A stretch of 43,698 nt of DNA from NCBI GenBank assembly GCA_017938885.1, contig JAGBAS010000124.1, positions 1 through 43,698 on the forward strand. Direction: 5' to 3'. Shown here piece by piece: positions 34,564 through 35,331 of this stretch; positions within the stretch are counted from its first letter, which is position 1; each line of letters opens with the position of its first letter. The notes below the pieces were generated by a model that was given only the letters and a program-made list of their open reading frames with translations, had not been told where the DNA came from and did not search any database. Source of the stretch: Clostridia bacterium. Its GTDB lineage: Bacteria; Bacillota; Clostridia; Oscillospirales; CAG-272. Made by a program: the position numbers and the translations under genes.

Positions 34564-34639
34564 TGGGGCATCGCCAAGCGGTAAGGCAACGGACTCTGAC
34601 TCCGTCATTTCCTAGGTTCGAATCCTAGTGCCCCAGCCA
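34564..34639 (+). tRNA. tRNA-Gln (anticodon CUG)
   Basis: The acceptor stem TGGGGCA/TGCCCCA, D-arm GCC-AAGCGGTAA-GGC, anticodon stem ACGGA/TCCGT around loop CTCTGAC (anticodon CTG), and T-arm CTAGGTTCGAATCCTAG are all intact. Discriminator G and an encoded CCA follow. It is transcribed alone between its own promoter and terminator. Confidence 0.95.
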
Positions 34640-34640
34640 G

Positions 34641-34672
34641 AAAAAACGACAAGTTTCGACTTGTCGTTTTTT
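34641..34672 (+). terminator. Terminator of tRNA-Gln
   Basis: AAAAAACGACAAG/CTTGTCGTTTTTT with a TTTCGA loop. Confidence 0.92.
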
Positions 34673-34676
34673 CAAC

Positions 34677-34850
34677 GAAATTCGCCTTGCGGCGAGTGAA
34701 ATTTGGCTTCGCCAAGTGAAATAGCTTCGCTGTGAAATATTTGCTTCGCAAATGTGAGGAGGCGAATTTCATTTCACATCGAACAAAGTGAGATATTTCA
34801 CAATTTCCGTAAGGAAATTATTTCACATTCGGCAACGCCGAATATTTCAC
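34677..34850. repeat. Array of small hairpins joined by GTGAAAT / ATTTCAC
   Basis: Three GTGAAAT spacers (34696, 34716, 34732) and four ATTTCAC spacers (34771, 34795, 34820, 34844) alternate with short perfect hairpins of differing stem sequence: TTGGC-TTC-GCCAA, AGC-TTC-GCT, ATTTGC-TTC-GCAAAT, AATTTCC-GTAA-GGAAATT, ATTCGGC-AAC-GCCGAAT. The left half is itself closed by GAAATTCGCC (34677) and GGCGAATTTC (34761). No open frame of note. It may be a mobile or amplifying intergenic element. Confidence 0.8.
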
Positions 34851-34857
34851 TAAAACC

Positions 34858-35331
34858 GGTTTGAGTTCGAAACCTTATTAAAGATTGCCCAAAATATCTT
34901 TTTCGTAGCCTTTATACACACCTTACTAATTTGAACCTACTTTGATGGTAGGCGGGTTAGTAAGGTTTTTTCTTTGTGAGAATTCAACCGTGGAAATTCA
35001 GGGGTTTTCACCTCAATAGTTGCTTTCACTTCTACTGGAATATCGGAATCCTTGTTGTATATTTCTCCAATAAAATATGCTTCAGGGTTAAAGCCTCCCC
35101 TTTGTATTGGTCGCAATCAGTCAACCCTCGTTGAACGGCTACGGTCAACCTTACACAAAGCCGAAAGTTATAGCAGGAAAGCGGTATTTCCCCTTGCTTT
35201 ACAAAGGTTTTTCATTCTTGTATCAGCGAGAACGATCTTGGCTTTTCCCATTACAATATAGCACATTTTTAAAACGTCAATGCGAATAATGACTCAAAAG
35301 TACATTTCTAAGGCAAAGGGAGTTTTTAATC
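34858..35331. other. Gene-poor stretch after tRNA-Gln
   Basis: I find no intact gene here. The stretch is moderately AT-rich. On the minus strand one frame (about 35118 down to 34942) reads as a plausible protein tail (GFNPEAYFIGEIYNKDSD, then VKATIEVKTPEFPRL) with no convincing start, perhaps a gene remnant. A weak minus-strand promoter-like TTGACG lies near 35275-35281. Confidence 0.4.
34921..34971 (+). terminator. Orphan intrinsic terminator
   Basis: CCTTACTAA/TTAGTAAGG with an inner CCTAC/GTAGG stem, then TTTTTT. No gene precedes it on the plus strand except the tRNA, which has its own terminator, so an upstream unit may have been lost. Confidence 0.7.

Follow-up and report, generated by a model that had tools for sequence, protein, structure and literature searches.

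A hairpin array behind a tRNA-Gln gene of a Clostridia bacterium, probably a non-autonomous copy of an S23-type mobile DNA module

The window analyzed here, a stretch of 43,698 nucleotides from the genome of a Clostridia bacterium (contig JAGBAS010000124.1), harbors an array of seven different hairpins separated by a constant 7-base word. This feature is probably a non-autonomous copy of an S23-type mobile DNA module, inserted after the CCA of a tRNA gene. In its complete form, such a module would comprise, behind a tRNA or tmRNA ending in CCA, its own terminator hairpin, an array of four plus three hairpins, a promoter, and an S23 gene, often with a coupled cargo gene; the copy in the window would have lost its S23 gene or never had one. 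Only the left half of the array is already known, as Gut-1; taken as a whole, the element resembles a piece of mobile DNA that inserts at the 3′ ends of tRNA genes and travels with S23, a small ring-forming protein.

Architecture of the array and its likeness to Gut-1

Seven exact words, GTGAAAT three times and then ATTTCAC (i.e., GTGAAAT on the reverse strand) four times, alternate with seven hairpins at positions 34675-34850 of the window, and the pattern GTGAAAT-N(5-30)-GTGAAAT has five matches in the window vs. 0.00 in 100 shuffles. Thus, the array of constant words and differing hairpins and the flip of word orientation midway, both reported in the preliminary description, are real. The same is true of the 10-base inverted repeat enclosing the left half, where GAAATTCGCC (34677-34686) pairs with GGCGAATTTC (34761-34770); the arms are complementary in six of seven distinct versions. 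The folding z-scores of the array against shuffles are −6.3 as RNA and −7.3 as DNA.

The element starts earlier than first noted, namely, with the word ACGAAAT (34675-34681, forward strand), a variant of GTGAAAT; one of these two words opens most full elements. It is followed on the same strand by hairpin H0 (TCGCC-TTGC-GGCGA, 34682-34695), the word GTGAAAT (34696-34702), H1 (TTGGC-TTC-GCCAA, 34703-34715), GTGAAAT (34716-34722), H2 (AGC-TTC-GCT, 34723-34731), GTGAAAT (34732-34738), and H3 (ATTTGC-TTC-GCAAAT, 34739-34753), which is seen again in many elements. A degenerate fifth word, GTGAGGA (34754-34760), stands where most elements have GTGA.., and the right arm of the closing stem ends the half. 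The second half begins with ATTTCAC at 34771-34777 (a reverse-strand word, like the three that follow) and continues with the imperfect hairpin H4 (ATCGAACAAAGTGAGAT, pairing ATCGAAC..GTGAGAT, 34778-34794), ATTTCAC (34795-34801), H5 with its GNRA loop (AATTTCC-GTAA-GGAAATT, 34802-34819), ATTTCAC (34820-34826), H6 (ATTCGGC-AAC-GCCGAAT, 34827-34843), and the ATTTCAC forming the right end of the array (34844-34850). H3 is evident from the sequence, and the other six hairpins are backed by the covariation of their slots (see below).

The left half (34673-34743, forward strand) matches the Rfam model Gut-1 (RF01706) with 71.4 bits (E 7e-14), above the gathering score of 50, and the right half, an inverted and weaker counterpart, gives a sub-threshold match on the reverse strand (34766-34852) with 39.8 bits against the same gathering score. 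Gut-1 comes from a metagenome survey of 2010, where it was rated certain as RNA, assigned to “Human gut only”, and listed as a non-coding RNA without known role (PMC2864571). No further account of it was found in the open-access literature (bioRxiv preprints aside), and one may exist elsewhere. The likeness resides in the above-threshold match of the left half, but the Gut-1 model spans 77 nt, whereas the element takes up about 176 nt with an inverted second half. Moreover, the element is mobile, is flanked in most cases by a terminator and a promoter, and is part of a larger set that includes, with other words, members outside Gut-1. Another Rfam match, to EF0408_EF0409 (28.5 bits, gathering score 440), was discarded as fortuitous, such matches being attributed to the long palindromes.

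Spread of the arrays and insertion beside tRNA 3′ CCA ends

The genome of the window (3.03 Mb, 95% complete) contains 15 Gut-1 matches. A scan of this genome and its relatives for word pairs, as proposed in the preliminary description, returned 29 matches on nine contigs of the genome vs. none in the reversed control, with a few isolated pairs probably due to chance, and arrays (at least one run of three words) in 57 of the 146 genomes of the family vs. none in the control; arrays were found in other families as well. The pattern scan of contigs also gave scattered single matches in unrelated phyla, which are chance-like, and the statistics below refer to full two-half elements. The genomes are mostly metagenome assemblies, and arrays break contigs. 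The opposite picture considered at the outset, i.e., a single copy with stems not kept in orthologs, is contradicted by the many copies with covarying stems.

The plan of the full elements is mostly fixed, with four left-hand and three right-hand hairpins, so the stepwise growth suggested earlier does not hold as a general rule. It is seen in one relative, whose ten-word array (G113:C8, L268, 2393-2578) contains a repeated three-hairpin unit of approximately 61 bp, a clear case of tandem growth. A second class of GTGAAAT elements (L178, L091, L138, L256) has neither a tRNA nor a T-run; its left side carries a GCGTACCTGC-type hairpin, and its right flank, TATATGCATTTGTG..CAAATGCAGTGC, is conserved.

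At 90-96% identity, the array of the window recurs at unrelated sites: behind the tRNA-Trp gene of a different genus (G121), behind a 3′ fragment of tRNA-Gln (G005), in another family (G057), downstream of an apparent rpsI (G017), and behind tRNA-Ala (G045). In the window, the insertion target is a tRNA-Gln(CTG) gene ending in CCA (34564-34639, forward strand; predicted with ARAGORN), and the BLAST homology to congeners ends at 34639-34645, approximately at this CCA. The site is empty in the congener G002, which reads CCAGCCAGACCTTACTAATTTG where the window reads CCAGCCAGA-[~278 bp]-ACCTTACTAATTTG. By this comparison, the whole insert occupies 34642-34919 of the forward strand (BLAST edges 34641 and 34917; boundaries ±1-3 bases), and the target duplication amounts to at most 1-2 bases at this one clean empty site examined.

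Immediately behind the tRNA, a perfect, bidirectional terminator hairpin (GAAAAAACGACAAG..CTTGTCGTTTTTTC) is situated at 34640-34673 on the forward strand. It is not the native terminator of tRNA-Gln because the empty site of the congener lacks it; the native one (ACCTTACTAA..TTAGTAAGGTTTTTTC, approximately 34920-34973, forward strand) directly follows the tRNA in G002 and was pushed away by the insert. Hence, the earlier statement that the array sits just after the tRNA-Gln terminator is correct as to its location behind tRNA-Gln but not as to the hairpin, which came with the insert. Near-identical terminator–array units stand behind different, unrelated tRNA genes, so the terminators travel with the array. 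The insert closes with a tail (34851-34918, forward strand; ..GAGTTCGAAACC..AAAATATCTTTTTCGTAGCC..) that is common to several other arrays; G005, G057, and G121 have it together with the array, and G007 has it by itself. In other loci (L243, L248, L249, L245), this conserved tail, GAGTTCGAA..AAAATATCTTTTTCGTAGCC, is found behind arrays or between them and often leads into a ATATCATC-type array.

Among the orthologs of the tRNA-Gln flank in 11 congeners, three or more word families are represented, along with other inserts and the one empty site. The arrays there use GTGAAAT, AATGATG, or AACATCATT, some word arrays lack hairpins, and one insert carries a repeated tRNA 3′ end. In each case, the homology of the congeners ends at CCA or within a few bases of it. 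Over the 39 elements with enough upstream sequence, 19 are within 70 nt of a sense tRNA and none is near an antisense one; a further element behind tmRNA raises the count to 20, which bears out the suspected association with tRNA genes, while about one third of the elements lie away from recognizable tRNA ends. A T-run precedes 28 of the 39, and a promoter-like sequence follows at once in 18. A position between terminator and promoter, found in many loci, would also be expected of a DNA insulator or regulatory palindrome, selected between the tRNA and the next promoter and not mobile, but unrelated sites in different genera and families carry nearly the same copies, which, together with the empty site, renders this very improbable.

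The preference for tRNA 3′ ends also brings to mind a site-specific tyrosine recombinase moving gene cassettes at these sites, with the array as its recombination site and a functional analog of integron attC. Indeed, arrays bracket cargo genes in tandem at several loci (L157, L136, L298, L301), tRNA 3′-end fragments with GTTCAGAATCC occur in some of the loci, and the strand-biased hairpins recall the recognition of single-stranded attC. This explanation is nonetheless unlikely, considering that the right junction in the window displays no duplicated tRNA 3′ end, several elements are away from tRNA ends, and no integrase tied to the module, including an integron integrase, was seen in the regions mapped around arrays, nor were attC core sites. 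Integron cassettes share with the element the palindromic modules that bracket single cargo genes in tandem and the strand bias of the hairpins; they differ from it in that the element uses a tRNA 3′ end as its platform, brings its own terminator and promoter, and has seven hairpins. The tRNA 3′-end fragments mentioned above have an extra T-loop base (GTTCAGAATCC for GTTCGAATCC) at L254/L255 (G005), L236/L259 (G011), and upstream at L284. They stand before arrays or at the far ends of inserts, and they are possibly scars of an integrase cutting in the tRNA T-loop.

A REP-like origin with a tyrosine-type transposase, raised in the preliminary description, was checked as well. Elements of the REP/BIME type, moved by a Y1 (RAYT or IS200) transposase, are likewise short intergenic hairpin repeats that form inverted pairs, reach many copies, and are often found beside terminators. 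However, Y1_Tnp had no matches in the 95%-complete genome (5 of 14 control genomes were positive), on which ground this route was rejected for this genome, barring a copy in the missing 5% of the assembly. In addition, the word is constant and the hairpins vary in the element, the reverse of REP, where a conserved hairpin bears a short 5′ tag; an origin of this kind is therefore scarcely credible. MITEs, e.g., ERIC, BOX, and Correia elements, resemble the element in being short, intergenic, and non-autonomous with inverted termini; terminal inverted repeats of this type are represented by the AACGAAAT / ATTTCACT ends together with the inverted halves. Unlike them, the element has no clear target duplication at the clean empty site, its interior consists of ordered covarying hairpins, and its partner is S23, with no transposase known.

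Covarying stems, strand-specific loops, and changing words

The earlier suggestion of selection for structure is upheld by the stems, which covary in every slot tested, and by the strand-specific loops. Because MAFFT aligned the left halves of full elements wrongly, the count of covariation used hairpin slots anchored at the flanking words, with the 3′ arms shuffled. Kinship among the elements persists in such shuffles. In slot H0, 104 of 112 cells are paired (shuffle mean 43, maximum 60), and the other slots show 99 of 108 (H1; shuffle maximum 53), 77 of 100 (H2; 49), 160 of 192 (H4; 108), 186 of 198 (H5; 121), and 157 of 168 (H6; 112). The variety of pair types is nevertheless large, with up to four Watson–Crick types per stem position.

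The loops obey a rule that depends on the strand. Across seven word families, GNA or GNRA loops are found on the ATTTCAC-type strand in 149 of 282 hairpins and their mirror in three, and the loop-closing pair is C-G in 266 cases vs. G-C in seven; C(GNA)G and C(GNRA)G thus prevail among the loops of this strand. Exceptional stability is a property of C(GNA)G triloops in DNA and of GNRA loops in RNA. Because the halves are inverted and the rule appears in only one half of each strand, a DNA element with two like ends fits better than one RNA.

Relatives keep the plan of the element with other words, e.g., GTGATGT, GTGAAGT, GTGATAT, GCTAAAT, AATGATG, GATGAAAT, and TGAATTG, among more. Within an array, most copies of the word, in both halves, have changed together. 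Such concerted replacement would be required by a reader acting in trans and would not be required by pairing between the halves alone.

These observations bear on the possibility that the locus is transcribed into a functional structured RNA (Gut-1), the repetition and mobility of the array being secondary. The Rfam listing of Gut-1 as an sRNA gene, the verdict of “certainly” RNA in the 2010 survey, the 71.4-bit match of the left half, and the covarying stems all speak for it, but covariation alone cannot separate RNA from single-stranded DNA. The gap in which the array sits needs no transcription, as follows from the T-run terminators before and the promoter-like sequences after it, and neither strand is consistently the “RNA” strand, because the loop rule tracks the strand of the word and reverses in mid-element. 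With the concerted word changes across both halves also counting against it, a transcribed RNA is a doubtful explanation of the array.

The S23 partner and its proposed role

Several arrays are followed by a TIGR02436/PF05635 gene (S23, or 23S_rRNA_IVP; a four-helix bundle; E ~1e-28). The relatives of S23 by sequence in PDB are 2RLD (E 1.5e-21) and, weakly, 2GSC (named XCC0516 there); the crystal structure of S23 from X. campestris is described as a toroidal homopentamer (PMC4990558). The gene is linked to the arrays: when 40 S23 genes were drawn from the list in sequence, regardless of arrays, 29 proved to be directly behind a hairpin array. The overall figure is 43 of 60, usually behind a tRNA, with the class judged by eye and the 60 made up of these 40 and 20 more, three of which were picked with an array known. 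By genome, arrays and S23 co-occur (46/11/42/47 of the family genomes with both, arrays only, S23 only, and neither; Fisher p 6e-5). On a tree of 67 S23 rows, the word changes 21 times vs. 50.9 times after shuffling (0 of 200 shuffles as low), and the S23s of hairpin arrays form one well-supported group, with one exception. The words hence follow the S23 tree, which could result from plain co-inheritance without binding.

In the genome of the window, a single S23 gene was found; it is on contig C42, and the array in front of it has the word of the window. The insert in the window contains no S23 gene beside its array, whereas relatives of the same architecture have one; among some 40 full GTGAAAT elements, only about eight are next to S23. 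Homology of the S23 modules ends at the S23 stop codon, a TGA that several modules share with the ATG start of an unrelated gene. This stop/start overlap (ATGA) was noted with different unrelated genes at L337, L301, L300, L293, L298, L303, and L312, as if the S23 modules carried translationally coupled cargo.

Contiguous words with a period of seven flank most S23 loci without arrays, passing the threshold upstream in 21 and downstream in 19 of 43 loci vs. 3.3% of control stretches; the repeat signal is at lag 7, with at most one locus at any other lag. Such words accompany array-less S23 genes in several phyla, including Nostoc, Planktothrix, Bernardetia, and Treponema plasmids. Two S23 loci (L350, L352) have a period of 11 (TAGTTAAACGA) vs. 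7 elsewhere, so word length may differ between S23 lineages. Other S23 genes, with 7-base repeats, are encountered between cas2 and cas1 of CRISPR loci on Nostoc and Anabaena plasmids (L370, L371), and one has a DISARM gene on one side and a restriction enzyme gene on the other (L373).

In the intervening sequence (IVS) of Coxiella, tandem heptamers GACAGAT stand just 5′ of the S23 gene (PMC4990558), the same arrangement as in the array-less S23 loci. Beyond these heptamers, no link of S23 with word arrays was found in the open-access literature (bioRxiv preprints aside), and a report may exist elsewhere; a paper on heptamers of Xanthomonas and Nostoc does not mention S23. The likeness of the 23S rRNA IVSs to the element thus consists in an S23 gene (PF05635/TIGR02436) beside 7-base repeats and in a mobile element located at a stable structured RNA. 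In contrast to the IVSs, the element is inserted after a tRNA CCA (that of tRNA-Gln in the window) and not inside 23S rRNA, its words are separated by hairpins, and terminator, promoter, and cargo are added; the copy in the window lacks S23.

The four-helix bundle also invites a comparison with Avd, a four-helix-bundle pentamer. In a retroelement, an RNA copy could be primed from the tRNA 3′ CCA and reverse-transcribed, with S23 in the part that the accessory protein Avd plays in diversity-generating retroelements; the insertion next to the CCA of tRNA or tmRNA would suit this route. It is quite improbable, since RVT_1 is absent from the genome of the window, which led to the rejection of a reverse transcriptase, and is present in only 36 of the 146 family genomes vs. 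88 with S23.

In the S23-type mobile module favored here, S23 would recognize the repeated 7-base words on a single-stranded nucleic acid from which the intervening hairpins loop out as spacers. Word reading would mark both ends of the module, which a host enzyme or another enzyme would then capture at tRNA 3′ ends, and solo arrays such as that of the window would be acted on by S23 in trans. A match between five words per half and the pentameric S23 ring is only suggestive, given four or five words in the left half and four in the right.

A broader proposal may be put forward tentatively. The S23 proteins could be sequence-reading rings for iterated 7-base words, defining widespread small mobile elements without a classical transposase or reverse transcriptase of their own. 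The IVSs in 23S rRNA, the contiguous heptamers of cyanobacteria and others, and the hairpin arrays at tRNA ends, including Gut-1, would then be three forms of such elements, the hairpin form being read in single strands with hairpins of strand-specific GNA loops as spacers.

If true, this would explain together the Gut-1 candidate RNA without function, the long-puzzling four-helix-bundle protein S23/IVP, and many intergenic heptamer repeats. It makes testable the view of S23 as a word-reading, nucleic-acid-binding ring driving a mobile element, and nature would provide the pairs of S23 protein and cognate word that can be swapped in binding tests. For gut Clostridia, the 3′ ends of tRNA and tmRNA genes would be added as a docking site for small gene modules.
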